Assembly (NCBI GenBank): GCA_010027295.1
Contig: RGVM01000013.1
Location: 1-15,780 of the forward strand
Source of the DNA: Chitinophagia bacterium
Lineage (GTDB): Bacteria; Bacteroidota; Bacteroidia; Chitinophagales; Chitinophagaceae
Length of the DNA: 15,780 nucleotides
Reading direction: 5' to 3'
The notes under the pieces are model-generated. The model ran no database searches and was not told the origin of the DNA. It was given only the letters and a program-made list of their open reading frames with translations. How positions within the stretch are numbered: position 1 is the stretch's first letter; every line of letters starts with the position of its first letter. A program made the translations under genes and the position numbers. Positions 45-15,780 of this stretch are shown in pieces.

Positions 45-76
45 CCCGAGACCGACACGAAAGAACCGATTCAATT

Positions 77-1306: not shown

Positions 1307-1360
1307 CATCATCGGCCGGAACCCTGAGAACCTCAACGAAAACCAATCATTCGGAATACC

Positions 1361-2437
1361 ATGACGGGAATCCTGATTACCTCGATACTGGCCCTGGCCT
1401 TCATCGTGATCTTCCAGATCGCGAAGGCCAGCGAGTACGTGAGTGTGCTGAAGGGCGAGGAGAAGGCCTTCCAGCAGAGCAACCGAATCAACGCCTTCCT
1501 TTTCCTTTCCTTCCTGGTCCTGGGCCTCGTAGGGGCCTGGTGGTGCAACAAGCTCTTCTACGGGAAGACACTCTTCGTGCAGCCCGCCGCCTCCGACCAT
1601 GGCGAGAAGATCGACAACATGCTCTGGCTCACGCTGGCAGTGACGGGCCTGGTCTTCTTCATCACGCAGATCCTGCTGTTCTGGTTCGCCTACAAGTACC
1701 AGTACTCGGAGAAGCGCAAGGCCCACTTCTTCGCCCATAGCAACAAGTTGGAGCTCATCTGGACGGTCGTGCCGGCCATCTTCCTCACGGTGCTGGTGGG
1801 CTTGGGCCTCTATTATTGGTTCGGCATCACGGGTCCCGCCCCCAAGGACGCGCAGCTCGTGGAGATCACCGGCAAGCAGTTCAACTGGCTGATGCGCTAT
1901 CCCGGAAAGGACGGCGTCCTCGGCCGCAAGAACTACCGCCTGACGGACGCCTCCAACGGCAACGCTCTGGGCGTCGACTGGGAGGATGGCAGCAGCCATG
2001 ACGACATCGAGTCTACCGAGATGCACCTTGTCGTCGGCAAGCCCGTGCAGCTGGTCATCAACGCACAGGACGTCATCCACGACGTGGGCCTCGTGCATTT
2101 CCGGATGAAGATGGATGCCGTACCGGGCATTCCCACCACCATGTGGTTCACACCCAAGTACACCACCGCGCAGATGAAGGAGATCACCGGGAACAAGGAC
2201 TTCGTGTACGAGATCTCCTGCGACCAGATGTGCGGCAGCGGCCACTATTCCATGCGCGGCATCGTCATCGTCGAGACGCAGGAGGAGTACGACCGCTGGA
2301 TCTCAGGGATCAAACCCCAGTACAAGACCGTCATGGAGGCAAAGGCCCCTGCCGCCTCTCCCGCTGCGGACACCCTGAAGAGCGTCTCCATGCCACCGGC
2401 CGCGAAGCCCCTGGCACAGAACCTGACTGTGAAATAA
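1361..2437 (+). CDS. coxB: Cytochrome c oxidase subunit II (CuA subunit)
   Basis: The 358-aa protein receives electrons at the binuclear CuA centre and passes them to heme a in subunit I. There is an extra N-terminal helix (about 3-20), then two helices (about 43-61 and 86-110) forming the usual hairpin, then the periplasmic cupredoxin domain with GKQFNWLMRYPG (171-182). The CuA ligands are visible: H240 in DVIHDVGLVHF, and C287, C291, H295 and M298 in CDQMCGSGHYSM. Residue 289 is Gln where the classical CxExC motif has Glu; Bacteroidota homologues also vary here. There is no CXXCH, so unlike caa3 oxidases it carries no fused cytochrome c. The C-terminus is an Ala/Pro-rich tail. It lies 54 bp after actF and 47 bp before coxA. 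Confidence 0.95.
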   Translation: MTGILITSILALAFIVIFQIAKASEYVSVLKGEEKAFQQSNRINAFLFLSFLVLGLVGAWWCNKLFYGKTLFVQPAASDHGEKIDNMLWLTLAVTGLVFFITQILLFWFAYKYQYSEKRKAHFFAHSNKLELIWTVVPAIFLTVLVGLGLYYWFGITGPAPKDAQLVEITGKQFNWLMRYPGKDGVLGRKNYRLTDASNGNALGVDWEDGSSHDDIESTEMHLVVGKPVQLVINAQDVIHDVGLVHFRMKMDAVPGIPTTMWFTPKYTTAQMKEITGNKDFVYEISCDQMCGSGHYSMRGIVIVETQEEYDRWISGIKPQYKTVMEAKAPAASPAADTLKSVSMPPAAKPLAQNLTVK

Positions 2438-2484
2438 CCCAAGGACATACGGACACCTGATCCATATACCCTAAACGAAGAGAG

Positions 2485-4305
2485 ATGAGCACCGAAATCA
2501 CACAGCACAGCCATGCCGCCACGCTCCAGACGGAGTCACATGGCCACCATGAGGGCGACCATGGCCACCACCATGAGGAGTCGTTCATCAGCAAATACGT
2601 CTTCAGCCAGGACCACAAGATGATCGCCAAGCAGTTCCTCATCACGGGGATGATCTGGGGTGTCATCGGCGGCCTGTTCTCGGTCCTATTCCGTCTCCAG
2701 CTCGGCTACCCCGACATGACCTTCCCCATCCTGGAGGACATGTTCGGCAAGTGGGCCGCCGGCGGACGGATCTCCAATGAGTTCTACTATGCGCTCGTCA
2801 CCATGCACGGCACCATCCTGGTGTTCTTCGTGTTGACGGCCGGCCTCAGCGGCACTTTCGCCAACTTCCTCATCCCCCTGCAGGTGGGTGCGCGCGATAT
2901 GGCCTCCCCCTTCCTGAACATGCTCAGCTACTGGTTCTTCTTCCTCGCCAGCGTGATCATGTTCGCCTCGCTGTTCCTGCAGACCGGACCCGCAAGCGGC
3001 GGTTGGACCATCTATCCGCCGCTCAGCGCGCTCGGACAGGCATCCGAGGGATCCAAGCTGGGCATGGACTTCTGGCTGGTGTCCATGGCCATGTTCATCG
3101 TCTCCTCGCTGCTCGGCGGCCTCAACTACATCACCACGATCCTCAACATGCGCACCAAGGGCATGTCGATGACGCGGATGCCCCTGACCATCTGGGCCAT
3201 CTTCTTCACCGCTGTCCTGGGCGTACTGTCCTTCCCGGTACTGCTTTCCGGCGCCATCCTGCTGCTCTTCGACCGGAACCTGGGTACCAGTTTCTATCTC
3301 TCCGAGATCGTCGTGAAAGGCGAGATCCTCCCCAACGAGGGCGGCAGTGCCATCCTCTTCCAGCACCTGTTCTGGTTCCTGGGCCACCCCGAAGTGTACA
3401 TCATCCTGATGCCGGCCCTGGGCATGGTCTCCGAGATCCTGAGCGTAAACTCGCGCAAGCCCATCTTCGGCTATCTGGCAATGGTGGGATCGCTGTTCGC
3501 CATCGCAATACTTGCCTTCCTGGTATGGGCGCACCACATGTTCGTGACCGGACTGAACCCGTTCCTGGGAGCTTTCTTCGTACTGCTCACGCTGCTGATC
3601 GCGGTACCCTCCGCCATCAAGGTCTTCAACTGGCTGACGACGATCTGGAGGGGTAACCTCAGGTTCACTCCGGCCATGCTTTTCGCCATGGGCTTCGTGA
3701 GCCTGTTCATCTCGGGCGGACTGACAGGCATCTTCCTCGGCAACTCGACGCTCGACATTCACCTGCACGACACCTATTTCGTAGTGGCACACTTCCACAT
3801 CGTGATGGGAGTGGCCTCGATGTTCGGGATGTTCGCCGGCGTCTACCACTGGTATCCGAAGATGTACGGCCGCTACATGAACAATACGCTTGCCTACATC
3901 CATTTCTGGGTATCCCTGGCGGGCGCCTACCTGATCTTCTGGCCGATGCACTACTTCGGTCTGGCAGGCATGCCACGACGCTACACTGACTGGAGCAACT
4001 GGCAGTCGTTCAACATGTTCGCCGACGCCAACCGCGCCATCAGCACCGTGGCCATGGTCGTGTTCGCAGTACAGCTGCTGTTCATCTTCAACTTCTTCTA
4101 TTCGATATGGAAGGGCCGGAAGGTGACCACGCAAAATCCGTGGGGTGCCAACACGCTGGAGTGGACGGCCCCCATCCGTCCCGGCCATGGAAACTGGCCC
4201 GGCGACATCCCCGAGGTACACCGCTGGGCGTACGACTACGGCAAGGACGGCAGGGAGTTCATCCCGCAGACCGAGGCCGTGTCGGACAGCGAGTCGAAGC
4301 ATTGA
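2485..4305 (+). CDS. coxA: Cytochrome c oxidase subunit I (aa3-type, A1 heme-copper oxidase)
   Basis: The 606-aa catalytic subunit reduces O2 to water at heme a3/CuB and pumps protons. Key residues are readable: H108 (TMHGT) and H438 for heme a, H436 (AHFHIVMG) for heme a3, and H301, H350 and H351 for CuB. Y305, in GHPEVY, is the His-Tyr crosslink residue. E303 in the same motif, with D138, N145 and N127, marks an intact D-channel; S376 and K379 (PSAIKV) mark the K-channel, with Ser replacing the usual Thr. The set defines an A1-type oxidase. About twelve helices span roughly 50-545. The N-terminus is an unusual His-rich stretch, nine His in residues 8-30, ahead of the conserved DHK motif (43-45). 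The ATG is preceded by GAAGAGAG. ctaB follows after 63 bp. Confidence 0.97.
   Translation: MSTEITQHSHAATLQTESHGHHEGDHGHHHEESFISKYVFSQDHKMIAKQFLITGMIWGVIGGLFSVLFRLQLGYPDMTFPILEDMFGKWAAGGRISNEFYYALVTMHGTILVFFVLTAGLSGTFANFLIPLQVGARDMASPFLNMLSYWFFFLASVIMFASLFLQTGPASGGWTIYPPLSALGQASEGSKLGMDFWLVSMAMFIVSSLLGGLNYITTILNMRTKGMSMTRMPLTIWAIFFTAVLGVLSFPVLLSGAILLLFDRNLGTSFYLSEIVVKGEILPNEGGSAILFQHLFWFLGHPEVYIILMPALGMVSEILSVNSRKPIFGYLAMVGSLFAIAILAFLVWAHHMFVTGLNPFLGAFFVLLTLLIAVPSAIKVFNWLTTIWRGNLRFTPAMLFAMGFVSLFISGGLTGIFLGNSTLDIHLHDTYFVVAHFHIVMGVASMFGMFAGVYHWYPKMYGRYMNNTLAYIHFWVSLAGAYLIFWPMHYFGLAGMPRRYTDWSNWQSFNMFADANRAISTVAMVVFAVQLLFIFNFFYSIWKGRKVTTQNPWGANTLEWTAPIRPGHGNWPGDIPEVHRWAYDYGKDGREFIPQTEAVSDSESKH
2539..2578 (+). 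repeat. Imperfect 21-bp-spaced tandem repeat encoding the His-rich N-terminus of CoxA
   Basis: CATGGCCACCATGAGG at 2539-2554 recurs at 2560-2578 as CATGGCCACCACCATGAGG, with one extra CAC codon. The repeat sits in frame inside coxA and encodes HGHHEGDHGHHHEE, so it explains the His-rich stretch. Such a repeat could arise by slippage. A role in metal handling is possible but not shown. Confidence 0.6.
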
Positions 4306-4368
4306 GGCAACCCTCCCGCGCCGCACGGTGCGGACAGGGCATGCGATACAAGGATTTTTGACATACGG

Positions 4369-5268
4369 ATGGAGAAGGAAAGCGAGGGGGAGGCCGCCCG
4401 TACGGGCCTGAAGGCCAGAATCGGCGACCTCGGACAGCTGATGAAGTTCACCCTGAGCTTCACGGTCGTGTTCTCTTCGGTGGTCAGCTACCTGCTGGTC
4501 CCCTCGGTGTCCTTCGACATCACGTCAGTTCTTTTACTTTTCGCAGCGGGCATGCTGGTGACGGGATCTGCCAACGCGATCAACCAGATCGTGGAGAAGG
4601 ATACCGACGCTCTCATGAAGCGTACCGCGAAGCGGCCGGTGGCATCCGGCCGGATGGGTGTGGACGAGGCATGGACGTATGCCGTCGTGGCTGGTGTCGT
4701 CGGGGTCTTCCTGATGGCCTGGCGTTTCAACGGCACATCGGCCCTGCTTTCGGCCTTCAGCCTCTTCCTCTACGCCTTCGTCTATACGCCGCTGAAGAAG
4801 GTGCACTCCATCGCCGTGCTCGTGGGCGCGGTACCCGGTGCGCTGCCCTGCCTCATCGGCTGGGTGGCGGGCGAGGACGGCTTCTCGCCCGGGGGATGGG
4901 TACTGTTCGCCCTTCAGTTCGTATGGCAATTCCCGCATTTCTGGGCCATCGCCTGGGTTGTGTACTCCGACTACGGCAGGGCGGGATTCCGCCTGCTGCC
5001 CTCGGCCGAGGGACCGACCAAGTACGCGGCAGTCCAGGCCGTGCTGTACACGATCATCCTGATACCCATCGGGGCCCTGCCCTATGTGTTCGGGATGAGC
5101 GGAGCCATGAGCCTGGTGGTCGTGACGGCCGCCAACCTGGCCCTCCTCTGGCAGTGTATCCTCCTTTTCCGGCGGATGGACGTCGGATCGGCGCGGAAGG
5201 TCATGTTCGGATCATATATCTACCTGCCAGTGGTGCTGCTGGCCCTTCTGGCCGACAAGGCCTCCTGA
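4369..5268 (+). CDS. ctaB: Protoheme IX farnesyltransferase (heme O synthase), UbiA family
   Basis: The 299-aa membrane prenyltransferase adds a farnesyl group to heme B to make heme O, the precursor of the heme A used by the neighbouring oxidase. The first aspartate-rich motif is at N72-x3-E76-x-D78-x-D80, followed by MKRTAKRPVASGRM (83-96), the CyoE/CtaB signature; Glu at 76 replaces the first Asp. The second motif is YSDYGRAGFRLLP, within a loop matching the family's KDDYARAG region. Roughly eight to nine helices are seen, and the length is normal. The charged N-terminal 20 residues precede the first helix, and the start at 4369 gives the best fit. It lies between coxA and the first subunit III gene. 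No heme A synthase (ctaA) gene is present in the window, so heme A formation must be encoded elsewhere. Confidence 0.93.
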   Translation: MEKESEGEAARTGLKARIGDLGQLMKFTLSFTVVFSSVVSYLLVPSVSFDITSVLLLFAAGMLVTGSANAINQIVEKDTDALMKRTAKRPVASGRMGVDEAWTYAVVAGVVGVFLMAWRFNGTSALLSAFSLFLYAFVYTPLKKVHSIAVLVGAVPGALPCLIGWVAGEDGFSPGGWVLFALQFVWQFPHFWAIAWVVYSDYGRAGFRLLPSAEGPTKYAAVQAVLYTIILIPIGALPYVFGMSGAMSLVVVTAANLALLWQCILLFRRMDVGSARKVMFGSYIYLPVVLLALLADKAS

Positions 5269-5309
5269 CAGGCAAACAGTAAGAAAGAGAGACGAGGGAG
5301 AAAGAAAAA

Positions 5310-5885
5310 ATGACGGAGACGGTCAACATACAGCGAGGGAGGATCCATCCCTACAAGTTCACGATGTGGGTCGCGATCGGCAGCATCATCATGATGTTCG
5401 CCGGCCTGACCAGCGCATACATCGTGAAGCGCAGCCAGGCGGGCTGGGTGATGATCGACATACCCTTGGCGTTCTGGTTCTCCACTGTCGTGATCCTGGC
5501 CTCCAGCGTGACGGTGCATCTCGCGGTACGGGCCTCCCGGGAGCGCGACATGCCCGGCTACCGGAAGTGGATGGTGGCCACGGCCGTGCTGGGAACGGTA
5601 TTCCTGATCCTCCAGACGAAGGGATTCATGGACCTGAGGGCCCAGGACATCCGTCTCGTGGGCGCCGGCTCGAACGCGTCGCATTCCTTCCTGCTGGCCA
5701 TAGCCGGACTGCACGGCCTGCACGTGCTCGGCGGCGTGGCCGCCTTGCTGGTCATCGCCTGGCGTGTGGTACGCTCCCGCACCCGAACCTACAGCAGCGT
5801 TCCAGCCGAGGTTATATCGACATACTGGCATTTCGTGGACGTGCTCTGGATATATCTGATCCTCTTCTTCAACTGGATGCGGTGA
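5310..5885 (+). CDS. Cytochrome c oxidase subunit III, first paralogue (short, five helices)
   Basis: This 191-aa member of the heme-copper oxidase subunit III family has about five helices and the conserved YWHFVDVLW motif (172-180) in the last helix. Subunit III stabilises subunit I and helps keep the D-channel supplied with protons. The helix that normally carries QxxE (the DCCD-reactive Glu in classical enzymes) reads LQTKGFMD (101-108), with Gly at 105 in place of Glu. The next gene is a second, longer subunit III that keeps the Glu, so this may be a structural paralogue. Two tandem subunit III genes are common in Bacteroidota oxidase operons. A strong purine tract (about 5280-5309) lies directly before the ATG. 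It starts 41 bp after ctaB. Confidence 0.88.
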   Translation: MTETVNIQRGRIHPYKFTMWVAIGSIIMMFAGLTSAYIVKRSQAGWVMIDIPLAFWFSTVVILASSVTVHLAVRASRERDMPGYRKWMVATAVLGTVFLILQTKGFMDLRAQDIRLVGAGSNASHSFLLAIAGLHGLHVLGGVAALLVIAWRVVRSRTRTYSSVPAEVISTYWHFVDVLWIYLILFFNWMR

Positions 5886-5923
5886 CACAGGGCCCCTTAC
5901 AATCATAAACCAAGACGATCGAC

Positions 5924-6673
5924 ATGGCAACAGCCCAAGCAGCACAGATGGAGACCAAATGGTGGAGTGGCGGGAAGAGCCCCTTCAACGTGGAATACGG
6001 CAAGCTCATGATGTGGTACTTCCTCATGAGCGACGCCTTCACCTTCGGCGCTTTCCTGATCTCCTACGGCACCATACGTTTCAGCCAGAACTACTGGCCC
6101 GACCCCAACCAGGTCTTCAACGCATTCCCCTTCGCGGGCCATGCCAACCTGCCGCTCGCATTTGTGAGCCTCATGACCTTCATCCTCATCGTGAGTTCCG
6201 TCACCATGGTGCTCGCGGTACATGCGGGTCATCACAACGACAGGAAAGGCGTTATCAAGTGGATGATATGGACCATACTGGGCGGCATTGCCTTCCTGGC
6301 CTGCCAGGCATGGGAATGGACCCACCTCATCACTGGCGACCACGCCGTGCTCATCAACGGAAAGGTCGAGCACATCGGAACGACCGTCAGCCGCAACCCC
6401 TGGGGTGCCGCAGTGCCTGGCATGGCGCATGACGGGCATGCCCTAACCACGACGGGACCGGTCGCCTTCGGTGGCTACTTCTTCGGCATCACCGGCTTCC
6501 ACGGCTTCCACGTGTTCTCCGGCGTGATCATCAACATCATCATGCTGATTATGACCATGAACGGCGTGTTCGACCGTCGCGGACACTACCTCATGATCGA
6601 GAAGGCAGGCCTCTACTGGCACTTCGTCGACCTGGTATGGGTCTTCGTCTTCCTCTGCTTCTACCTCATCTGA
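5924..6673 (+). CDS. coxC: Cytochrome c oxidase subunit III, second paralogue
   Basis: The 249-aa protein has about five helices, an N-terminal soluble stretch containing WWSGGKSPFNVEYGK (13-27), and the family motif YWHFVDLVW (231-239). Q128 and E131 in CQAWEWTHL match the conserved QxxE of subunit III, so this copy is the better candidate for the classical role next to the D-channel. It has a roughly 45-residue hydrophilic insertion (about 137-180, rich in Gly, His and Thr) between two helices, absent from the paralogue just upstream. It starts 38 bp after the first copy and lies 36 bp before the subunit IV gene. Typical length for the Bacteroidota version. Confidence 0.92.
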   Translation: MATAQAAQMETKWWSGGKSPFNVEYGKLMMWYFLMSDAFTFGAFLISYGTIRFSQNYWPDPNQVFNAFPFAGHANLPLAFVSLMTFILIVSSVTMVLAVHAGHHNDRKGVIKWMIWTILGGIAFLACQAWEWTHLITGDHAVLINGKVEHIGTTVSRNPWGAAVPGMAHDGHALTTTGPVAFGGYFFGITGFHGFHVFSGVIINIIMLIMTMNGVFDRRGHYLMIEKAGLYWHFVDLVWVFVFLCFYLI

Positions 6674-6709
6674 GTCCATCGATCCAGCAACAAAGAAATC
6701 CCTTCCGAT

Positions 6710-7153
6710 ATGGAGCATCAATCGACACCCGAAGTCACCTTCCACCACGAGCCCGGCGGCAAAGAAGTGGTACAGCGGATCATCCGCACGACCGTCATCC
6801 TCTCCGTCATCACCCTGATCGAACTGGCCCTCGGCTTCGGCATCTACTTCCTGCACAAGAACCCCGACCCGAGCGCGGCCCTCATACTCTTCATGAAGGG
6901 TGTCATCGTCATACTCTCCCTGCTGAAGGCCTTCTACATCGTGGGCGTCTTCATGCACCTGGGCGACGAGATTCGCAACCTGATCATGACGATCGTGGTG
7001 CCGCTGCTGCTGTTCGTCTGGTTCATCGCCGCCTTCCTGTGGGATGGCGACTCCTGGAAGATGCTCCGCAACACGGACGGCCACTCCAAGGCGGCCACGG
7101 AACAGACCAGCCATCCGGCGCCCTCCACCCAGGGACACGGACAAGGACATTGA
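6710..7153 (+). CDS. Cytochrome c oxidase subunit IV family protein
   Basis: This small 147-aa membrane protein has three predicted helices (about 25-48, 57-82 and 90-112). The second ends in KAFYIVGVFMHLGDE (73-87), which matches the KAxxIxxxFMHL signature of the prokaryotic subunit IV (CyoD/CtaF-like) family. It probably stabilises the catalytic core at its periphery. The N-terminus is polar with HH at 12-13, and the C-terminal 30 residues are hydrophilic and His/Gly-rich. It is the last gene before a strong terminator-like hairpin, which places it at the end of the structural oxidase block. Confidence 0.88.
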   Translation: MEHQSTPEVTFHHEPGGKEVVQRIIRTTVILSVITLIELALGFGIYFLHKNPDPSAALILFMKGVIVILSLLKAFYIVGVFMHLGDEIRNLIMTIVVPLLLFVWFIAAFLWDGDSWKMLRNTDGHSKAATEQTSHPAPSTQGHGQGH

Positions 7154-7174
7154 CATGTTCAGCCAACCCAGTGG

Positions 7175-7215
7175 AATGCACCGTCGCGTCGAACCGCAAC
7201 GGTGCATTTTTGTTT
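7175..7215 (+). terminator. Rho-independent terminator after the oxidase structural genes
   Basis: AATGCACCGT (7175-7184) pairs perfectly with ACGGTGCATT (7199-7208). After a C/A mismatch, three more pairs (GCG 7186-7188 with CGC 7195-7197) extend the stem over a six-base loop. The stem runs directly into TTTGTTTG. It begins 21 bp after the subunit IV stop. This should end or strongly attenuate the act/cox transcript, so the SCO gene is read by readthrough or from its own promoter, which I cannot pinpoint. Confidence 0.82.
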
Positions 7216-7228
7216 GATACGTTCACAG

Positions 7229-7927
7229 ATGTCCTACCGAAAGGCGATAGCGATAGCCGTTGTGCTCGTACTCCCCGTGATGAGCTACCTCATCGTGGAG
7301 AACCTCAGCAGAGGGGCTGTACGCATGCCCCGACGATACTTCTACGACAGCGTCACGATGGTCACCCAGGAGGGTAAGACGCGTCCGGACACTGCCTGGC
7401 ACAGAGTTCGACCGTTCACCCTCACCAACCAGTTCGGCCGCGAAGTGTCTCTAGACGAGTGGCAGGGCCGCATCATCATCGCCGATTTCATCTTCACCTC
7501 CTGCCCCAGCGTCTGCCCCACCCTCACGCGCAACATGAAACGTCTGCAGGACGCTTTCAAGAAGACCGATTCGTTGGTGCGCTTCGTATCCTTCACCGTC
7601 GACCCGGCTCGTGACTCCGCCCCCCGGCTGAAGGCCTACGGCGACCGCTTCCGTGTGGACCACGACACCTGGTGGATGCTCACCGGTGACAAGAAGGAGA
7701 TCTACGACATAGCCCTTCATGAGTTCAAGGCCAACATCGCTCAGGCGGATGGCGTCGATACGGGCTTCATCCACACCGACAAGTTCTTCCTACTCGACCG
7801 CGACAGGGTGGTGAGGGGATGGTATAGCGGACTGGACAGCGTCAGGCTCGATGAGGTCATACGCGATGTGGTGCTGCTCAACATGGAGCGAGATAAGAAG
7901 AAGAAACGCAACCTCTTCCGGAAATAA
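7229..7927 (+). CDS. SCO1/SenC/PrrC family copper chaperone for CuA assembly
   Basis: The 232-aa protein has one N-terminal membrane anchor (about 5-23) and a thioredoxin-fold domain outside the membrane. The copper ligands of the family are present: C92 and C96 in TSCPSVCPTLTRNM, and the distal histidine H182 in FIHTDKFFLLD. SCO proteins deliver copper to, or reduce, the CuA cysteines of subunit II, which fits the coxB gene upstream. A GTG at 7202 would extend the frame by nine residues, but it lies inside the terminator hairpin, so the ATG at 7229, which places the hydrophobic anchor correctly, is chosen. DUF420 follows after 23 bp. The C-terminus is strongly basic (DKKKKRN). Confidence 0.92.
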   Translation: MSYRKAIAIAVVLVLPVMSYLIVENLSRGAVRMPRRYFYDSVTMVTQEGKTRPDTAWHRVRPFTLTNQFGREVSLDEWQGRIIIADFIFTSCPSVCPTLTRNMKRLQDAFKKTDSLVRFVSFTVDPARDSAPRLKAYGDRFRVDHDTWWMLTGDKKEIYDIALHEFKANIAQADGVDTGFIHTDKFFLLDRDRVVRGWYSGLDSVRLDEVIRDVVLLNMERDKKKKRNLFRK

Positions 7928-7950
7928 ACAACACCCGCAAGGGCCATTCC

Positions 7951-8493
7951 ATGCTGCCACCTTCCATTCCAAAGAACGACAGGCTCGCCAACATCGCCAT
8001 CCTGGCCGTCTCGGCCGTCGTATTCGCCGCCGTGGTCCTACTGAAGCAGGTCCAGGTCCCGGTGGACCCGTCTTTCGACGTGCACATCTTCGCCCGCATC
8101 AACGCCGTCATCAACAGCCTCGTCTCCGTGCTGCTGGTGGCCGGACTGGTGGCTGTGAAAAACGGCCGCTACCTGCTACACAAGCGCATCATGGGGACGG
8201 CGATCCTGCTCTCGGTGGTGTTCCTGCTGTCCTACATCGCCCACCACCTGCTCTCGGGCGACACGAAGTACGGTGGCGAGGGCGCCATCCGCTATGTCTA
8301 CTTCTTCATCCTCATCAGCCACATCCTGCTGGCGGCCGTGATCCTGCCCTTCATCCTGTACACCTCGTATCGTGCGCTGGTGGCCGAATGGCATGCGCAC
8401 CGCAGGATGGCCAAGCTGACCTGGCCCGTATGGTTCTATGTCTCCGTGACGGGCGTGGTGGTGTATTGGATGATCAGCCCCTATTATTCCTGA
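7951..8493 (+). CDS. DUF420 membrane protein (YozB/CtaM-like oxidase assembly factor)
   Basis: The 180-aa protein has about five helices. Conserved DUF420 features are the ARINAVINSLV helix start (about 49-59), the GRYLLHKRIM loop, YIAHHLL with paired histidines, the FFILISHILLA helix with a His, and WHAHRRMAKLTWPVW near the end. Several in-membrane His residues could bind heme or metal. The Firmicutes homologue YozB/CtaM is needed for cytochrome c oxidase biogenesis. The position directly after a SCO gene (23 bp) and after the cox genes supports the same role here. An AAGGG lies before the ATG. It ends 17 bp from the convergent minus-strand gene. Confidence 0.85.
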   Translation: MLPPSIPKNDRLANIAILAVSAVVFAAVVLLKQVQVPVDPSFDVHIFARINAVINSLVSVLLVAGLVAVKNGRYLLHKRIMGTAILLSVVFLLSYIAHHLLSGDTKYGGEGAIRYVYFFILISHILLAAVILPFILYTSYRALVAEWHAHRRMAKLTWPVWFYVSVTGVVVYWMISPYYS

Positions 8494-8495
8494 AA

Positions 8496-8507
8496 GTCCG
8501 GCGGACG
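8496..8507 (-). terminator. Small hairpin between convergent genes, possible weak terminator
   Basis: Read on the minus strand, GTCCGCCGGAC forms a 4-bp GC-rich stem with a three-base loop and is followed by TTT. It falls in the 17-bp gap between the converging DUF420 and Atl1-like genes. The stem is short and the T-run poor, so this is only a weak candidate. Confidence 0.2.
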
Positions 8508-8510
8508 CAT

Positions 8511-8921
8511 TCAGAGTGCAAGCTCCTGTCCCGGGTCCCAGAAGCGCGATTTGAAATCGACGACTCTGTCATCGGCCACATCCACGCCCTCCATCCGGAG
8601 AAGTGTTTCCATGGGCCTGTCGGGCGGGAAATGATGTTTTCCGCTGAGCATGCCGTTTCTGTTGACGACCCGTTGCGCCGGTACTTCAGGGATGGCATGA
8701 TGGCTCGCGTTCATCGCCCAACCGACCATGCGGGCGGAGAGCCGGCTTCCGAGGCAGGCAGCGATGGCCCCATAGGTGGTCACCCTCCCGGCCGGGACCT
8801 GCCGAACGATGTCGAAGACGTCCTCGAAGAAGCCCTGCTGCCGTGGGATGCCATCCGGCACACGTGTCTCAGCGGATCTGCTCCTATCCGTTCTTCCTTT
8901 CCGAGGCATTCCTTTTTTCAT
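8511..8921 (-). CDS. Alkyltransferase-like (Atl1/MGMT-family) DNA-binding protein without catalytic cysteine
   Basis: The 136-aa protein matches the DNA-binding domain of O6-alkylguanine-DNA alkyltransferases: VPAGRVTTYGAIA (42-54, with the Tyr used in base flipping at 50), the arginine-finger region SARMVGWAM (62-70), and VPAQRVVNRNG (80-90). In active MGMT the last motif is PCHR; here it is PAQR, with Ala82 for Cys and Gln83 for His. The protein should therefore bind, but not repair, O6-alkylguanine. Atl1-type proteins flag such lesions for nucleotide excision repair; the role here is inference. The start at 8921 has AAGG about 5 bases upstream and overlaps the DUF5522 gene by 38 bp; a second ATG at 8909 is possible. 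The first 27 residues are basic and not part of the domain. Confidence 0.88.
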   Translation of the reverse strand: MKKGMPRKGRTDRSRSAETRVPDGIPRQQGFFEDVFDIVRQVPAGRVTTYGAIAACLGSRLSARMVGWAMNASHHAIPEVPAQRVVNRNGMLSGKHHFPPDRPMETLLRMEGVDVADDRVVDFKSRFWDPGQELAL

Positions 8922-9105
8922 TGGCCCTTACGGCCGCTTTCACATCGGCCAGTCGGTCGGCAGGCACGTTGACATGGTCATACGGGCAGTTGAGGCAACC
9001 GTTGCCGCAGCAGACCCCGTTCTCGAGATGGTACTTTGCGGTGAGCACCATGTAGCCCATCTCGTTGTAGTAGAAATGCTCCCCCTCAATTAGCTTCCTC
9101 TTCAT
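8884..9105 (-). CDS. DUF5522 cysteine-rich mini-protein
   Basis: The 73-aa protein matches DUF5522, small Bacteroidota proteins of unknown function. The core is EGEHFYYNEMGYMVLTAKYH (7-26), then a cysteine cluster C32, C33, C37 and C40 in VCCGNGCLNCPYDH, spaced CCxxxCxxCP. Four clustered cysteines suggest a zinc or iron-sulfur site, which is inference. The frame is open up to 9219, but those residues overlap trmB and do not match the family, so the ATG at 9105 is chosen. It lies 22 bp after trmB and overlaps the start of the Atl1-like gene, so the three are probably one transcript. The C-terminal 20 residues are charged and likely helical. Confidence 0.85.
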   Translation of the reverse strand: MKRKLIEGEHFYYNEMGYMVLTAKYHLENGVCCGNGCLNCPYDHVNVPADRLADVKAAVRANEKRNASERKNG

Positions 9106-9127
9106 GGGTAAATATGGTTGTGGTTCT

Positions 9128-9859
9128 TCAGGACAGGGTATCGTAATGGCTCTTGGCCTTGATGGGTTCCGCCAGTACCCAGCGGTGAAGGCCTTCGTCC
9201 AGTTCTTGCGAAATGGCACCCCTCAGTCGGAAACAGAGGTAATGAATCCGGTTGCTGCCGGAGATATCGAGGCCCTCGTAGTGTGTCCGGATGCGCAGCT
9301 CAGGAGCCGGGTCGGGATGGACGGAGAGGTCGAAGACGTCTTCGATCGTCTCCAGGCCGTAGATCTCTATGACCTTGCGGGTGAAGTCGTACAGGTCCGG
9401 CGAGTCGGTCTTCAGGTGAATCAGGCCGCCGGGCGCCAGGAGTCGGGCATACCGTCGGAGGAAGGCCGGATGGGTGAGGCGTTTCCGGTCGCGCGAGGCC
9501 CGGAGTTGCGGGTCGGGGAAGGTGATCCATATTTCCGACACCTCGCAGTCGGCGAAGTAGTCGTTGATCCTGTCGATCTGGGTACGGAGGAAGGCCACGT
9601 TGGTCAATCCCTCGCGAAGGGCCTGCCGGGCGCCCACCCAGATGCGATTTCCCTTGACATCGGTCCCGATGCAGTTGCGACCGGGGTGCATCCTTGCCAG
9701 TCCGACGGCGTACTCCCCTTTGCCGCAGGCCAGCTCCAGCGTGATGGGATGGTCGTTCCCGAAATGAAGCTGCCAGTTCCCGGGCATGCCCGAAGGGTAC
9801 TGCAGGACGTTGGGGAACGTCGCCACCTCTGCGAAACGGATGAGCTTCTTCTGGGCCAT
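9128..9859 (-). CDS. trmB: tRNA (guanine-N7-)-methyltransferase
   Basis: The 243-aa SAM-dependent enzyme makes m7G46 in the tRNA variable loop. The SAM-binding motif is ELACGKGEY (42-50), followed by GTDVKG (65-70) with the acidic ribose contact. The catalytic-region motif is WITFPDPQLR (111-120), then RKRLTHP, LKTDSP (149-154) and the C-terminal RTHYEGLDISG (191-201). The family usually has FPDPW; Bacteroidota homologues commonly have another residue, here Gln. The N-terminal KKLIRFAEVATFPNVLQ is typical of the phylum's TrmB. It is first in a minus-strand operon with DUF5522 and the Atl1-like gene. C-terminal residues about 212-243 extend slightly beyond the usual domain. Confidence 0.95.
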   Translation of the reverse strand: MAQKKLIRFAEVATFPNVLQYPSGMPGNWQLHFGNDHPITLELACGKGEYAVGLARMHPGRNCIGTDVKGNRIWVGARQALREGLTNVAFLRTQIDRINDYFADCEVSEIWITFPDPQLRASRDRKRLTHPAFLRRYARLLAPGGLIHLKTDSPDLYDFTRKVIEIYGLETIEDVFDLSVHPDPAPELRIRTHYEGLDISGSNRIHYLCFRLRGAISQELDEGLHRWVLAEPIKAKSHYDTLS

Positions 9860-9905
9860 GGTGTATGCGGCTGAGGGAACTGCGGGGTAGTTCCAATCCC
9901 AATAA

Positions 9906-9940
9906 CAAGTTTATGCTGAAGGATGTTTCGAAGCGTCGAA
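9906..9940 (-). promoter_or_regulatory. Weak candidate Bacteroidota-type promoter for trmB
   Basis: On the minus strand TAAACTTG (9906-9913) differs by one base from the TAnnTTTG -7 element of Bacteroidota. TTCG (9937-9940) stands 23 bp upstream as a one-mismatch -33 TTTG. Transcription would start about 40 bp before the trmB ATG. Both elements are imperfect. Confidence 0.25.
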
Positions 9941-10063
9941 GAATTAGCGTTTCAAAGACAATTGACACAATGGCTTCAACAGCCCCAAGTTGGGACCTTG
10001 TGTCGGCATCACTCCGCACGGTTGAATCCAACTACCGTCGCCGTCCTTTTTCCCTTTGAACAC

Positions 10064-10085
10064 GGCCTTTTACACTTGGAAGGCC
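10064..10085 (+). other. Stem-loop GGCCTT/AAGGCC in the region before the small secreted protein gene
   Basis: GGCCTT (10064-10069) pairs perfectly with AAGGCC (10080-10085) across a 10-base loop. No T-run follows, so it is not a classic terminator. It could be an operator dyad or leader structure. The loop contains TACACTTG, a one-mismatch -7-like element, so the dyad may overlap the promoter. Confidence 0.35.
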
Positions 10086-10106
10086 CTGTCGCACGAAGCT
10101 ACCTTA

Positions 10107-10132
10107 GGACCGTGATCGCCCGTAAGCGGTCC
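10107..10132 (+). other. Stem-loop GGACCG/CGGTCC in the region before the small secreted protein gene
   Basis: GGACCG (10107-10112) pairs perfectly with CGGTCC (10127-10132) across a 14-base loop. It directly abuts the GGGGGTGACACC repeat at 10134. With that repeat it would form a structured 5' leader 45-80 bases before the ATG, if transcribed. Confidence 0.35.
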
Positions 10133-10133
10133 C

Positions 10134-10145
10134 GGGGGTGACACC
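10134..10145 (+). repeat. Left arm of a 12-bp inverted repeat flanking the small secreted protein gene
   Basis: GGGGGTGACACC here is the exact reverse complement of GGTGTCACCCCC at 10511-10522. Each arm also contains the quasi-palindrome GGTGNCACC. The arms lie 45 bp before the ATG and 12 bp after the stop of the gene between them. A shared operator, long-range RNA pairing or chance are all possible. Confidence 0.5.
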
Positions 10146-10189
10146 CGACCGAAACAACCAATTTTCAAAAACCATTAAAACCAAAGCGT

Positions 10190-10498
10190 ATGAGGAGATG
10201 GATCGTGATGGCGGTGATGATGGCGATGGGATTCGCCGCGACCGCCGGTGAGAAGGGACACGCGTACAGTAATGAAACCGGTGCGAAAGTCGAAAAGGGT
10301 ATCGGAGCCGTCCGGCCCACGGGGGAGGACGGGCAAGGACCTTGCTCGTTCACCGCGAAGGGTTCGGTCAGCACCCCGGTCATCAGCTTCGATTTTTCCT
10401 GCACAGCCACGGAGGAGTCATGCAAGCTGGCCATTCAAAAGGCACTGGAATGTGCGAGGCTGGCAGTAAAGGTCTTTCGGGACCAATTCAAGAGTTAG
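10190..10498 (+). CDS. Small secreted four-cysteine protein of unknown function
   Basis: I do not recognise a family. The 102-aa product begins with a clear signal peptide (RR at 2-3, hydrophobic to about 18, AATAG near a cleavage site around 19-20), so the mature part is about 82 residues in the periplasm or outside. It has four cysteines, all in the mature part: C52, C71, C78 and C88, suitable for two disulfides. Residues 25-50 are Gly-rich and polar. Residues 73-100 form a probable amphipathic helix (ESCKLAIQKALECARLAVKV). The start follows an A-rich leader (CAAAAACCATTAAAACC). It lies 49 bp before the GLPGLI gene and may be expressed with it or alone, since a hairpin sits between them. 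Coding is supported by the signal peptide and codon use; function unknown. Confidence 0.7.
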   Translation: MRRWIVMAVMMAMGFAATAGEKGHAYSNETGAKVEKGIGAVRPTGEDGQGPCSFTAKGSVSTPVISFDFSCTATEESCKLAIQKALECARLAVKVFRDQFKS

Positions 10499-10506
10499 AC
10501 CGATAG

Positions 10507-10526
10507 GGAAGGTGTCACCCCCTTCC
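10507..10526 (+). other. Stem-loop between the small secreted protein gene and the GLPGLI gene
   Basis: GGAAGG (10507-10512) pairs with CCTTCC (10521-10526) across an 8-base loop containing TGTCAC. No T-run follows, so termination is doubtful; RNA processing or attenuation is possible. The hairpin overlaps the right arm of the 12-bp inverted repeat, so the two structures would compete. Confidence 0.4.
10511..10522 (+). repeat. Right arm of the 12-bp inverted repeat
   Basis: GGTGTCACCCCC is the exact reverse complement of 10134-10145. It starts 12 bp after the stop of the small secreted protein gene and ends 25 bp before the chosen ATG of the GLPGLI gene. Confidence 0.5.
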
Positions 10527-10547
10527 TCCCATCAAAATAAATACAAG

Positions 10548-11321
10548 ATGAGACACTGGATGTTGATTTTCCTGATACTGCCGTGCATGGTCCTCGGGCA
10601 GGAGGGCCTGGACATCCGGCTTGACGGGCCTATGCGCGTCGAATATGCCGTCCTGTACAACCTGCGCTTCGACAGGGGCCGGCTCGACAGGCCCTACCGC
10701 GGCTATCTGACCCTCTCGGGACAGTCATCCCATTTCACCATGGTGCCTTCCACGGATACGGCGGCGAAAGGGCCGGCCGACGAAAACGAGGTGTTCATCG
10801 GCGCGGATACCGTGATGCAGGTCTGGAAGGACCTGGAACATGACCGGCTCGTGTTCATGGACCTCACCCTTTCCGGCCGTCCGGTCCCCTATGGCGATAC
10901 GCTGCATCCGATGGCATGGCATCTCCTCCCCGGGCAACGCATCCTCGATGGCATCGAATGCCATCGGGCGGAGACCCGGTTCCGGGGAAGGACATACATA
11001 GCCTGGTATGCCCCATCGATTCCTATTCCGCATGGACCCTGGAAGTTGGGCGGACTGCCGGGTCTGGTGCTGGAGGCCTTCGACGAGGATCGTAACCTGA
11101 CCTTCCGATTTTTGTCCATAAAAGGGGAAGACACACCAGGTGATCCCATGCCTCCGACACCATCCGGCGGCATCGGCGACTATGCGGCCTATCGGGACTA
11201 TTGGCAGGGTACCTTCCGTAGGCTGAGGCGTTCGATGGCGGCACAATCGGAGGGGGGCTGCCTGAGCTGCCAGACCCGGACCAAGCTGGCCTTTCACACC
11301 TGGGAAAGGATGGCGGAATGA
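10548..11321 (+). CDS. GLPGLI family secreted protein
   Basis: The 257-aa protein belongs to the GLPGLI family (Porph_ging), Bacteroidota-specific exported proteins of unknown function. The signature is GPWKLGGLPGLVLEAFD (163-179). A short signal peptide (about 1-17, MLIFLILPCMVLG then QEG) precedes beta-rich sequence. A CxxC pair, C238 and C241 (GGCLSCQT), lies near the C-terminus. The frame is open back to a GTG at 10512, but that would put 12 polar residues before the signal peptide and lies in a hairpin, so the ATG at 10548 after AAAATAAATACAAG is chosen. Its stop overlaps the start of the outer-membrane protein gene in an ATGA, which indicates translational coupling. GLPGLI genes often neighbour such TonB-receptor-like genes, suggesting a joint envelope role. 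Confidence 0.9.
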   Translation: MRHWMLIFLILPCMVLGQEGLDIRLDGPMRVEYAVLYNLRFDRGRLDRPYRGYLTLSGQSSHFTMVPSTDTAAKGPADENEVFIGADTVMQVWKDLEHDRLVFMDLTLSGRPVPYGDTLHPMAWHLLPGQRILDGIECHRAETRFRGRTYIAWYAPSIPIPHGPWKLGGLPGLVLEAFDEDRNLTFRFLSIKGEDTPGDPMPPTPSGGIGDYAAYRDYWQGTFRRLRRSMAAQSEGGCLSCQTRTKLAFHTWERMAE

Positions 11322-14038
11322 TCCGGAATCCGAAAGGTCGGACTGCCCATGCGATACCACTCCTACTCTACACCTGTCTGTGGGCTGCCGGTCTGTCCGT
11401 CCAATCCCAGCCTTTGTCCCGAGGTGAGATCAAGGGCGGCGTGATGGGCCCGGACGGGCAACCCCTGCCCTTCGCGACCGTGGTGATGAAGGATTCCTCC
11501 GGCGTCAGGGCCCTGGCTTATGCGTTGACCGACAGGGAGGGACATTATGTGATGCGCATCCCGGGTAACGCGCCGCGCATCACCCGCATCGTGGTGGAGC
11601 ATGTGCAGATGCGGGCTGCCGAATGCCTGCTTCCACTGGAGGGAGGCCCTTTCGCCTCCTATGACGCAAGCCTAAGGATGGCAGAGTTACCACGGACGCT
11701 GCAGGAGGTCGTCGTGAAGGCCGCGCCTCCCTCCATCTACGAAAAGGGCGACACGCTTGTCTATAGGGCCGTCGCCTTTGCCGATGCCGAGACGCGCAAG
11801 GTCGAGGACCTGCTGCGCCGGATGCCCGGTTTCCAGGTGTCGTCGGACGGTCGGATTCATTTCAACGGACGTGAGGTGGACAGGATCCTCATCGATGGCG
11901 ACGACCTCACCGAACGAAACTACCGCCTGCTGTCCAGGAATCTGCAGGCGGGCATCGTGGACAAGGTCGAGGTACTGCAGGACTATCATCCCGACCGGCT
12001 CCTGGGTCAGGTGGAGCGCTCCGACAGGGTCGGCATCAACCTGCGCACGGACACCAGGTTTCGCAACAGGCCGACATGGGACCTCGCACCCGGCGTCGGC
12101 ACTTCGGGCAGGAGCCGCTCCGATGGGCAGTTCGCCTGGCTGACGGAGCGTGGCAAGGCGCTGGCATTCCTCGACTTCAACCGTACGGCCGGCAAGCAGG
12201 GGGTCGGTCTGCAGTCCTCGCCGGATGATGAGGCCGGTCAAGGGTTGGAAGGAGTGGATTTCCCCTCCCTTCCCATCCGGACGGGTCGGATATCCACCCC
12301 CTCTCTGGAAGCCTCCTATGTCAGGGATAATCGCGATGCATCCGCCGTGCAGGTATTGGCGACGCGACTGGGTGCGCATGCCCGTCTCAGACTTGTCGCC
12401 GCGGCCGGCAGCAGTCAACGGCAGTCGGCTTCCCGCGAGACCCATGCATTTCTCACCCCAGATGCGGGTGGGTGGTCGCTGCAGGAGGAGAGGGGCTTCC
12501 GGGAGGCCATCAGCGAACGATCGGCTAAAATCGTCCTCACCCATGACAGAGGGGGGCGCCATGTCGGTAACAGCTCCATAGCATTCAACAGGCTTTCCGG
12601 TGTCACGACCTTCCGTGACCGGGTGGAAGGTGCCTTTCGCGATAGCATGGTCGAAAGGCTGGCAGATGGGTCGTCGTCGCTGAAGGTCCATGTATCCGAA
12701 ACCTTCAAGCTACCGGGCTCGAAGGTCCTCCGGTTCCGGTATGGGCATGAGCATTCCTGGTTCTCGCAGGATTTCGACATCACGAGCGGGAGGTGGAGTG
12801 CCGCTCTGGGCATGCCGCCCGGCCACCAAGGCTACCTGCAGGCGCTCGATGCCGTCGTCCAGGAGGGGGATGGCGGACTGACGCTGCATGGCAGGGGAGG
12901 CCGCATCGATTGGCGCTTGGGGGCTGACATGCGGCATTCATTCCAATCATACGAGGACCGGCTCCAATACGGCCCTATCGGCCAGCCCTTGTCGGGTGTA
13001 TTCAGAGACGGACGTACCCGTGCAGGCCAACGGATACTCGGGCTAGGCTATGCCTTCGAGATGCGGGCACGCAGGCGATGGTCGATGGGAGGCTCATGGA
13101 TGGCCGGCTGGGGGTTTGCCTCGAATGTGCGGCATGGATACACCTTGGATTCTGCCACAGTATTGTATCGGGCCATGCTGTCCATGCGCAGAGATTTCTC
13201 GCCACGCGAGAAGATCCTCCTGACGATTGGTACATGGAGGGAGCTGCCCTCTCGGGAGTCCTTCTTGCCCGAACGGCTCGACGGCGAGGGGATAGCCCGG
13301 GCACCTGTGGAAGTCCTGTCATGGGCGGACCGCAGGAGCCTTCAAATGACGTACGTCCGCCAAGAGCTTGCGAAAGCCCGGTCGATGGTATTGTCCCTCG
13401 CAGGCGGGCATGACGCCGGCGTGTATATTCCGCAGGTCGTGAGGGTAAAGGAATTTGCCAGAATCATGGAAGTGCCTTCCAAGAGTCGGGTCGCCATCCG
13501 CGCCAGCCTGCATGCGGAGGCATATGTCGATGCGTTGAGGGGCCGGACGGTGAGCGACCTGACCTGGTTCGGTTCCGACTCCGAGCTTCGTTTCAACGGA
13601 ATACCCGGACGGAACCGTTCCGCCCAGTTGACGCTCGGACAGAAATGGATCGCATCCTCTGAAGGGTGGTTCCGGATGGAATGCGGATGGACGTCGGAGC
13701 GGATGGTGAATGCCACGCGGCCGTCCATCGGCAATGGTGTCCGACAAGAGCTATGGCAGCATCACGGGTATGTGAAGGCCAAGGCTGATTGGGAGGGAAG
13801 GCCCTTCCTGGCGGTACAGTATGCCAGACGGAGTCTGGGGGCGGGGACATCCCTCGGAACCCTCGACCTCTTCGCGAGCCTGCAGGTCGGTAAGTCGTTC
13901 CGTTTCACCCTGACCTGCCATAACCTGACAGGAGCCGAAAGCATCACACTGGGGTCCGTCGGGTCCAACGAGAGGAGCCAGGTTGCTTACGACCTGGTGG
14001 GTCGCTATGTATGGGCCGGCATCGCATGGACCATGTGA
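11318..14038 (+). CDS. TonB-dependent-receptor-like outer-membrane beta-barrel protein with CarboxypepD-reg N-domain
   Basis: The 906-aa protein has a signal peptide (about 1-31) and a carboxypeptidase-regulatory-like beta-sandwich (about 36-118: GEIKGGVMGPDGQPLPFATV, then TDREGHYVM). A plug-like domain follows (about 125-245: LQEVVVKAAPPSIYEKGDTLVY, split here as LQEVVVKAA and YEKGDTLVY, then DLLRRMPGFQV, INGREVDRILIDGDD-like HFNGREVDRILIDGDD and DKVEVLQDYHPD). The rest is an alternating-residue beta-barrel ending in YVWAGIAWTM. No TonB box is recognisable, so energised transport is uncertain; this class is often annotated simply as outer-membrane beta-barrel protein. It is coupled to the GLPGLI gene by a 4-bp ATGA overlap. 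Full length for the class, with no frameshift seen. Substrate unknown. It ends 19 bp from the convergent symporter gene. Confidence 0.87.
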   Translation: MIRNPKGRTAHAIPLLLYTCLWAAGLSVQSQPLSRGEIKGGVMGPDGQPLPFATVVMKDSSGVRALAYALTDREGHYVMRIPGNAPRITRIVVEHVQMRAAECLLPLEGGPFASYDASLRMAELPRTLQEVVVKAAPPSIYEKGDTLVYRAVAFADAETRKVEDLLRRMPGFQVSSDGRIHFNGREVDRILIDGDDLTERNYRLLSRNLQAGIVDKVEVLQDYHPDRLLGQVERSDRVGINLRTDTRFRNRPTWDLAPGVGTSGRSRSDGQFAWLTERGKALAFLDFNRTAGKQGVGLQSSPDDEAGQGLEGVDFPSLPIRTGRISTPSLEASYVRDNRDASAVQVLATRLGAHARLRLVAAAGSSQRQSASRETHAFLTPDAGGWSLQEERGFREAISERSAKIVLTHDRGGRHVGNSSIAFNRLSGVTTFRDRVEGAFRDSMVERLADGSSSLKVHVSETFKLPGSKVLRFRYGHEHSWFSQDFDITSGRWSAALGMPPGHQGYLQALDAVVQEGDGGLTLHGRGGRIDWRLGADMRHSFQSYEDRLQYGPIGQPLSGVFRDGRTRAGQRILGLGYAFEMRARRRWSMGGSWMAGWGFASNVRHGYTLDSATVLYRAMLSMRRDFSPREKILLTIGTWRELPSRESFLPERLDGEGIARAPVEVLSWADRRSLQMTYVRQELAKARSMVLSLAGGHDAGVYIPQVVRVKEFARIMEVPSKSRVAIRASLHAEAYVDALRGRTVSDLTWFGSDSELRFNGIPGRNRSAQLTLGQKWIASSEGWFRMECGWTSERMVNATRPSIGNGVRQELWQHHGYVKAKADWEGRPFLAVQYARRSLGAGTSLGTLDLFASLQVGKSFRFTLTCHNLTGAESITLGSVGSNERSQVAYDLVGRYVWAGIAWTM

Positions 14039-14057
14039 GGGCTTCCCCCATGCCTCT

Positions 14058-15470
14058 CTACCAGAAACGGATGTAGAGGGCGGCCAGCACCATCATCACG
14101 GAGACCGCCATCACGAGCACGCGGTTGCTGACGGCGAACATGCCCTTCTCGAAGACAAAGGCCTTGGGGTTGACCTTCGGACCTGCGAGACTGATGCCCA
14201 CCATCAGGACGACCGTGAAGAAGAAGGACCAGCCCATGTTAATGAGGAAGGGGATCTCGTAGGCGCCGCCCGCGTTTCGGAAGGCCGTGTAGAGAATCGT
14301 CTCATTGCCGAGCAGTGAGATGGCGAAGCTGTTGAAGAAGACGACGATGAGGAAGCCGGCGATGACGCCCGTCACGGCGGCGGCCCCGGTGGTGCGCTTC
14401 CAGAACATGCCCAGGATGAAGGCGGCGAAGACGCCCGGGCTGATGAAGCCGGTGTACTTCTGGATGAAGGTGAAGCCGCCCGCCCCTCCGATGCCGAGCG
14501 TGTCGTTCCAGGTGAACACCACGGCCACGGCCATCGACACGAGGATGACGATCCGTCCGATGCGTACGAGTCTGCCTTCATCGGCCTCGGGGCTCACGTA
14601 CTTCTTGAAGATGTCGAGCGTGAAGATGGTGGAGATGCTGTTGACCTTGCCGGCGAGGGAGGCCACGATGGCGGCCGTGAGGGCTGCGATCGACAGGCCC
14701 TTGAGCCCGCTGGGCAGGAAGCTCAGGATGGCGGAGTAGGCGCCGTCCTTTCCTCCCTCGAGTTGAGGCAGGTGTCCGTTCTTGTACAGCACGTAGGCCG
14801 TGATGCCGGGCACCATCACGATGAGGGGCATGACCAGCTTGATCATGGCGGCGAAGAGGATGCCTGTCCGGGCCGTCTGCAGGTCGGCGCCGAGGGCCCG
14901 CTGGGTGATGTACTGGTTGCAGCCCCAGTAGTTGATGTTCAGGATCCACTGACCGGCGAAGTACATGGTGATGCCGGGCAGGATGAGGTACTTGTCCACC
15001 TCGAGTTGTGGGGCGTCGGGACCCGGCTTGTCGAGGATGAGGTGGAAGTGGTCGGGCGCCTGCTGCAGCAGGGTGCGGAAGCCGTCGACAACGCCGGTGC
15101 CGAGACCGTATTTCTCACTGACCATCGACAGGGCCATGAAGGTTGTCGCCAGGCCTCCCACGATGAGTACGGCCACCTGTATGACGTCGGTGTATCCGAT
15201 GACCTTCATGCCCCCCAGCGTGATGATGAGGGCGAAGACAGCCAGGGCGAGCATGATGGTATGGAGGTATTGCCCGCCCATCAGTCCATTGATGGCGACT
15301 GCACCGAGGTACAGGATGGAGGTCAGGTTGACGAACACGTAGAGGAAGAGCCAGAAGACAGCCATGATGAGCGCGACTGTCCCGTTATAGCGCCGGGTGA
15401 GGAACTGCGGCATCGTGAGGATGCCGTTCTTCAGGTATATCGGCATGAACCACACGGCGATGATGACGAC
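14058..15470 (-). CDS. Sodium/solute symporter (SSS, SGLT-like), 5'-truncated at a sequence seam
   Basis: About 470 residues of an SSS-family Na+ symporter are present. Visible motifs are AVWFMPIYLKNGILTMPQFL, FVNLTSILYLGAVAIN, YTDVIQV, NYWGCNQYITQR (about 14897-14938; matches the gating-Tyr helix of vSGLT), and IVASLAGKVNSISTIFTLD (about 14615-14671; the Na+-site helix, one of its two serines kept). The C-terminus ends LYIRFW, as in the family. The family's first roughly 85 residues, including the NISAEQ-like helix needed for Na+ and sugar binding, are absent. Upstream of about 15470 the frame continues to an ATG at 15638, but those 56 codons are antisense to a phosducin-like coding sequence and match no symporter. 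The gene is thus cut, not naturally started. Substrate (sugar or other organic solute) not determined. Confidence 0.9.
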   Translation of the reverse strand, partial: VVIIAVWFMPIYLKNGILTMPQFLTRRYNGTVALIMAVFWLFLYVFVNLTSILYLGAVAINGLMGGQYLHTIMLALAVFALIITLGGMKVIGYTDVIQVAVLIVGGLATTFMALSMVSEKYGLGTGVVDGFRTLLQQAPDHFHLILDKPGPDAPQLEVDKYLILPGITMYFAGQWILNINYWGCNQYITQRALGADLQTARTGILFAAMIKLVMPLIVMVPGITAYVLYKNGHLPQLEGGKDGAYSAILSFLPSGLKGLSIAALTAAIVASLAGKVNSISTIFTLDIFKKYVSPEADEGRLVRIGRIVILVSMAVAVVFTWNDTLGIGGAGGFTFIQKYTGFISPGVFAAFILGMFWKRTTGAAAVTGVIAGFLIVVFFNSFAISLLGNETILYTAFRNAGGAYEIPFLINMGWSFFFTVVLMVGISLAGPKVNPKAFVFEKGMFAVSNRVLVMAVSVMMVLAALYIRFW

Positions 15471-15482
15471 CTTCGTGAGCTC
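15459..15482. other. Junction between bacterial and eukaryotic-type sequence
   Basis: Left of here the minus strand encodes the symporter; right of here the plus strand encodes a phosducin-like protein. GATGATGACGAC (15459-15470) reads acceptably in both: Val-Val-Ile-Ile in a symporter helix on the minus strand, and four Asp before the phosducin helix on the plus strand. The break therefore cannot be placed more exactly, and short shared homology at the join is plausible. Confidence 0.75.
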
Positions 15483-15780
15483 GAACGCATTCGGAATAAG
15501 CGTCTTGAGGCCCTGAAGCAAGAAAAAGCCGAAATCTCGTTCGGCCACGTTTTTTCCGGTGTCAATAAGCAAAACTACGTCAATCAAGTGACTCAAGCGA
15601 GTGCGAAGGTTCCTGTGTTTTGCCACATGTTCGGTCATCGGTCGGTGCTTTGTGGCGAAATGACGCGGGTCTTCGATTTTCTAGCGCAGCGTCACAAATC
15701 GATCAAATTCGTTTCTGGCGTGGCGAGCGAAATCGTCGGCAGCGACTTTCCCGAGTCCAATCTTCCTTTCGTAGTCTTCT
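15459..15780 (+). CDS. Phosducin-like protein (PhLP2/PDCL3 type), internal fragment, eukaryotic-type
   Basis: An uninterrupted 107-codon frame runs off the window edge. It begins with an acidic-to-basic helix (DDDDLRELERIRNKRLEALK, residues 1-20), then SFGHVFSGVNKQNYVNQVTQ (27-46), CHMFGHRSVLC (55-65), FLAQRHKSIKFV (74-85) and FPESNLPFVVF (97-107). These align in order with human PDCL3: FGEVLEISGKDYVQEVTKA, LHLYKQGIPLC, LARKFPDVKF, YPDRNLPTIFVY. The family has a thioredoxin fold without CxxC and acts with the CCT chaperonin in folding actin, tubulin and related proteins; it is known to me only from eukaryotes. Hand-counted GC over 15481-15780 is 50%, against 57% in the preceding 300 bases. 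The N-terminal part upstream and the C-terminal part beyond the edge are missing. Contig chimerism is the likeliest cause. Confidence 0.82.

Follow-up and report, generated by a model that had tools for sequence, protein, structure and literature searches.

Phosducin-like proteins work together with CCT, the eukaryotic chaperonin, as described in excerpts of two papers (PMC10837153; PMC6312279), and their thioredoxin-like domain is without a CXXC motif (excerpt of PMC6312279). In PDCL3 (PhLP2A), a CCT/TRiC co-chaperone, the N-terminal domain comprises residues 1–90 and the thioredoxin domain residues 91–210 (excerpt of PMC10837153). Here, we describe a bacterial contig that ends in a phosducin-like gene piece. 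Aligned to PDCL3 as laid out in that excerpt, the piece runs from the final portion of the N-terminal domain into the first part of the thioredoxin domain; unlike PDCL3, it amounts to 107 residues with both ends missing, lies on a bacterial contig and has no match to the Pfam profile PF02114. It also differs from its closest relatives P0001–P0003, which are nearly full-length genes on contigs of 1.4–1.9 kb. Misassembly is known to yield chimeric contigs and is expected to occur less often than mis-binning (excerpt of the GUNC paper, PMC8201837). As in the chimeric contigs of that excerpt, fragments from different sources appear misassembled into one contig; unlike them, the contig studied here has one eukaryotic source, and the foreign piece measures 313 bases at one end. 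Set against this part of PMC8201837, it looks like the rarer misassembly case rather than mis-binning. This case was absent among the matches listed, as far as their text was available, in literature searches on chimeric contigs or eukaryotic contamination, chimeric reads or microhomology, phosducin-like proteins with bacteria or horizontal transfer, and phosducin-like proteins with CCT.

The window, i.e. the whole stretch of DNA that was analysed (15 780 bases), is the entire contig C25 of an assembly of 923 contigs totalling 3,569,746 bases, so the foreign piece lies at a contig end. The draft genome is catalogued as 92.79% complete and 4.48% contaminated. The features discussed below are the following:

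1–15467, no strand: bacterial part, recognized by a colinear DNA match to contig C4 of the relative G007, gene families and named kin
14058–15467, minus strand: sodium/solute symporter gene (TIGR00813) without its first 91 codons, recognized by Pfam/NCBIfam profiles and relatives
15456–15467, no strand: joint, at most 12 bases claimed by both homologies (read as Gly-Asp-Asp-Asp in the phosducin frame and as symporter codons on the opposite strand)
15468–15780, plus strand: eukaryote-type phosducin-like piece, approximately residues 71–174 of the 245-residue protein P0001, both gene ends missing, recognized by PDB and protein matches and third-position GC

Identity of the phosducin-like piece

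The plus-strand frame 15459–15779 runs through 107 codons without interruption. The chance of 104 open codons at this composition is ~0.009, and the evidence for a gene piece is its homology, not the open frame. The best protein relative, P0001 (245 aa; E 1.6e-45, search space 5.77 billion sequences), aligns without gaps over its residues 68–174, with 84 of 107 residues identical. Six protein relatives reached E 0.001 or better, and identity over the queried region ranged from 46 to 78% among P0001–P0006 (P0001 78%, P0002 69%, P0003 63%). The best PDB match was PDCL3 (7nvm_P, E 8.2e-9; residues 2–105 of the piece against 65–166 of PDCL3), followed by a phosducin-like protein 2 chain (7ylu_P, E 2.6e-4) and the PDCL2 domain 3evi_A (E 0.0065). 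The gap-free identity to P0001 and the PDCL3 match bear out an earlier note, made from the sequence alone, that had described an open phosducin-like frame of 107 codons on the plus strand. Its more specific label, phosducin-like protein 2, fits loosely: a chain of that name ranks second among the PDB matches, behind PDCL3. The note had also placed the start of the frame in mid-protein, and the first 67 residues of P0001 are indeed missing. A full layout of N-terminal, thioredoxin and C-terminal parts was not found, as coverage is confined to residues 68–174 of the 245 in P0001. Reading of the translation revealed no CXXC, as in the thioredoxin-like domain of phosducin-like proteins, to which the alignment assigns this region. 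Searched against Pfam and NCBIfam profiles, the fragment gave no phosducin match (PF02114 included). Among the relatives, PF02114 (cut-off 23 bits) scored P0002 (28.9 bits) and P0004 (35.4 bits) above its cut-off and P0001 (17.6 bits) below it, with no match to P0003.

All organism-named relatives are eukaryotes, including Amphidinium, Effrenium, Selendium, Volvox, Pelomyxa, Leishmania, Trypanosoma, flukes, primates, and fungi. Names were available for 9/63 and 27/100 proteins in two profile searches, most relatives in both being without one; the 63-protein search scored just the 7997 candidates with the most shared words. One distant relative (P0009) is automatically labelled as a thioredoxin-like negative regulator of GroEL. 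Two trees were built, one from 55 of the 63 proteins (8 shorter than 185 residues were dropped) and one from 54 hand-picked proteins, each with the window piece added. In both, the piece and P0001–P0003 formed a clade of four with support 100/98. The wider position of this clade differed between the trees: in the first tree a clade of nine adjoined P0010, P0011, and P0024 (96/90), whereas in the second these three grouped with Amphidinium and Effrenium, and the window's clade sat unresolved at the edge.

In the second tree, the environmental phosducin-like proteins P0001–P0006 and P0008, none of which has an organism name, formed a well-supported clade (99/94) with the window piece, and this clade may represent a little-sampled protist group. 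PF02114 annotations were precomputed for some of these relatives, P0001 and P0003 not being among them.

Base composition also sets the piece apart. Its GC (15468–15780, 0.505) is lower than that of its neighbour (14058–15467, 0.614), as the earlier note had it, but 313-base windows of 1–15467 (mean 0.601) reach down to 0.498, and lower GC is a weak mark when taken by itself. Third-position GC is the better mark: at 0.587, the foreign piece fell below 334/334 bacterial windows (minimum 0.644), the reference being overlapping 104-codon windows from 15 hand-picked putative bacterial gene frames.

The bacterial stretch and its interrupted symporter

Judged from gene content and order, positions 1–15467 are an ordinary Bacteroidota-type stretch whose host is probably a member of the Chitinophagaceae. 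A congeneric genome, G007, matched this part through its contig C4 in five colinear pieces, separated by unaligned gaps at 9861–10116, 10463–10785, 11322–11794, and 12053–13748 (the largest). Besides the symporter, eight of nine further frames had a Pfam match at 0.001, with families including cytochrome oxidase subunit I, UbiA, SCO1, DUF420, a methylguanine-methyltransferase domain, and a TrmB-like methyltransferase.

The symporter passed the curated cut-offs of both profiles (TIGR00813, 215.7 bits against 184; PF00474, 134.5 against 22.8), with scores taken on the frame 14058–15638, whose reading continues into the foreign part. Among the best 80 of 590 relatives, the named ones closest to it were an uncultured bacterium bin (81%), a Sediminibacterium pond MAG (79%), and Sediminibacterium soli (78%); after these came further Bacteroidota, in many cases Chitinophagaceae. 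With a threshold of E 1e-100, the symporter was found in 20/40 genomes, its own counted. Compared with the G007 symporter, it is 94% identical over 470 residues (91–560 of the relative), and its N-terminus is incomplete: it lacks the counterpart of the first 91 residues of the relative, as counted from an assumed start codon.

DNA identity with bacterial relatives ends sharply at 15467, whereas the G007 stretch continues for another 2 kb. All 91 related loci tested read through the breakpoint into the N-terminal part of the symporter itself, 87 of them from residue 30 or earlier and four from residues 35–56, where the stored sequence begins. These loci comprise 11 of 19 matching relatives (L003–L013) and the best 80 of 590 relatives of the symporter protein (L024–L103); in each of two pairs (L006/L024 and L007/L060), the two loci appear to be one and the same contig. 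The earlier claim that the foreign frame interrupts another gene is thus borne out, the symporter being cut at a point where related loci are intact.

The missing 5′ end of the symporter was sought in the window's own genome with G007 DNA, which returned only matches of 22–28 bases (E 0.06–0.8), none of them convincing. As a side observation, contig C217 of the same genome (L105, positions 6–1059) shows 64% DNA identity over 1066 bases to the G007 sequence upstream of the symporter. The similarity begins at the end of that contig and stops ~0.8 kb short of the joint, so C217 does not demonstrate the true continuation of the symporter; it could be what truly adjoins the broken end, or else a paralogue or contamination.

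The joint and its probable origin

Sequence comparison demonstrates the two origins, the breakpoint and the truncation of both genes: the symporter and the phosducin-like gene, each cut within its coding sequence, meet head to head, and the contig ends 313 bases further on. Identity with P0001 starts at the glycine codon at 15456 and bacterial DNA identity stops at 15467, so the part that is surely foreign is 15468–15780. The span of 15459–15780 given in the earlier note is refined accordingly: its bulk stands, and 15456–15467 can be assigned to either side. At the joint, P0001 reads Gly-Asp-Asp-Asp and P0002 Gly-Asp-Asp-Glu, while P0003–P0006 differ more; on the bacterial side, L003 is identical to the window across 15456–15467, and four other aligned relatives differ at one or two bases. 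The 12-base overlap is an upper estimate, with the eukaryotic side compared as protein.

We consider it very likely that the contig end is a chimera of a bacterial stretch and a eukaryote-type gene piece and that the joint is an artefact. The homology of both halves, the sharp breakpoint and the two truncated genes support the chimera that the earlier note had suggested; colinear homology stops at 15467, the related loci read through this point, and the foreign piece is short, terminal, and confined to one contig in the searches of kin. The example of a source given in that note, a symbiont, food or contaminant bacterium in a protist sample, gains no support from these data. We infer both the artificial nature of the join and the way it arose. 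In this reading, 15.47 kb of a draft genome from the Bacteroidota (probably Chitinophagaceae) would have been joined, inside the symporter, to a short piece of microbial-eukaryote DNA, most likely in the laboratory or in the computer. The join could stem from a chimeric library fragment or a template switch where the two sides share a short sequence, or else from false extension by the assembler. A short sequence common to two unrelated genes, head to head and both cut in mid-coding, would be the trace expected of a template switch or a false overlap. The k-mers usually used by assemblers are longer than 12 bases, so a plain graph error would explain the joint less easily than a library chimera.

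Searches of kin bear on whether the junction could exist in a living cell. A search with P0001 across 41 genomes of the genus (own included) matched the window's contig alone, with no match in the 40 others and no second piece of the phosducin gene elsewhere in its own assembly. Searches with the alignment A2 likewise matched this contig alone among 395 genomes of the phylum (none in 394 others) and 294 of the family (none in 293 others), own included in each. A2 contains the window piece (P0007, which includes 14 residues translated from the bacterial side); recovery of its own genome (G000) is therefore partly by construction, and the worth of these searches is in the genomes without a match. 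In a contig scan with A2, 0/66 pattern matches were confirmed; its own genome may be outside that scan. A PF02114 search of the 395 phylum genomes (0 matches) was dropped: it missed the window's own piece and no control matched, and its zero therefore cannot show absence.

A recent, real insertion of a eukaryotic gene piece into the chromosome of this strain, breaking the symporter, is highly improbable. In its favour, the sequence is continuous as given, the frame is intact, and nothing looks unusual in the left part of the contig. Eukaryotic marker profiles, a point counting against the chimera, revealed no other eukaryotic DNA in the assembly: kinesin and protein kinase gave 0 matches each, and actin gave one, in a family that also matches in six control genomes of bacteria. 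With these markers, three in number, no general contamination of the bin was thus seen. Against such an insertion, the visible piece is without the beginning of its protein, disrupts a gene kept by 91/91 related loci, was not found in the other genus, phylum, and family genomes searched, and shows a single edge, at a contig end. To our knowledge, bacteria lack CCT, the chaperonin with which phosducin-like proteins work, so a phosducin fragment would have no evident use in a bacterium. A junction that is real in the cell would require a very fresh eukaryote-to-bacterium insertion via short-homology joining, caught before decay, in a bacterium that perhaps lives in or alongside a protist, and we regard this as very unlikely. 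The earlier note had likewise ranked true transfer lower, and the failure to find the piece in the kin searched and the truncation of both genes support that ranking. If real, the locus would be a fresh eukaryote-to-bacterium insertion. Under the preferred reading, a chimera with an artificial joint, it carries a caution: a short foreign end of a draft contig can be mistaken in annotation for a eukaryotic gene carried by bacteria and feed false claims of gene transfer.

Even less probable is the converse, bacterial DNA inserted in a protist chromosome, with the whole contig eukaryotic. A joint of both kinds of DNA would look alike from one side, but over 15.4 kb the contig carries bacterial genes arranged as in a relative, with bacterial gene families and high third-position GC, and the insertion would have severed the protist's own phosducin-like gene. 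That the piece is a chance open frame or diverged bacterial sequence merely resembling phosducin has a negligible probability: the fragment has no phosducin match in Pfam or NCBIfam, and PF02114 misses it in its own genome too, but the E value and gap-free identity to P0001 speak decisively against this, and the full-length relatives P0002 and P0004 exceed the PF02114 cut-off.

Two frames of the bacterial part stand apart from its otherwise familiar gene content. Frame 77–1306 (409 aa), upstream of the oxidase genes, was without a Pfam match at 0.001. Frame 11318–14038 (906 aa), which comes after a Porph_ging (PF09697) gene and contains the largest stretch unmatched in G007 (12053–13748), had as its sole Pfam match a carboxypeptidase-regulatory-like domain, below cut-off.
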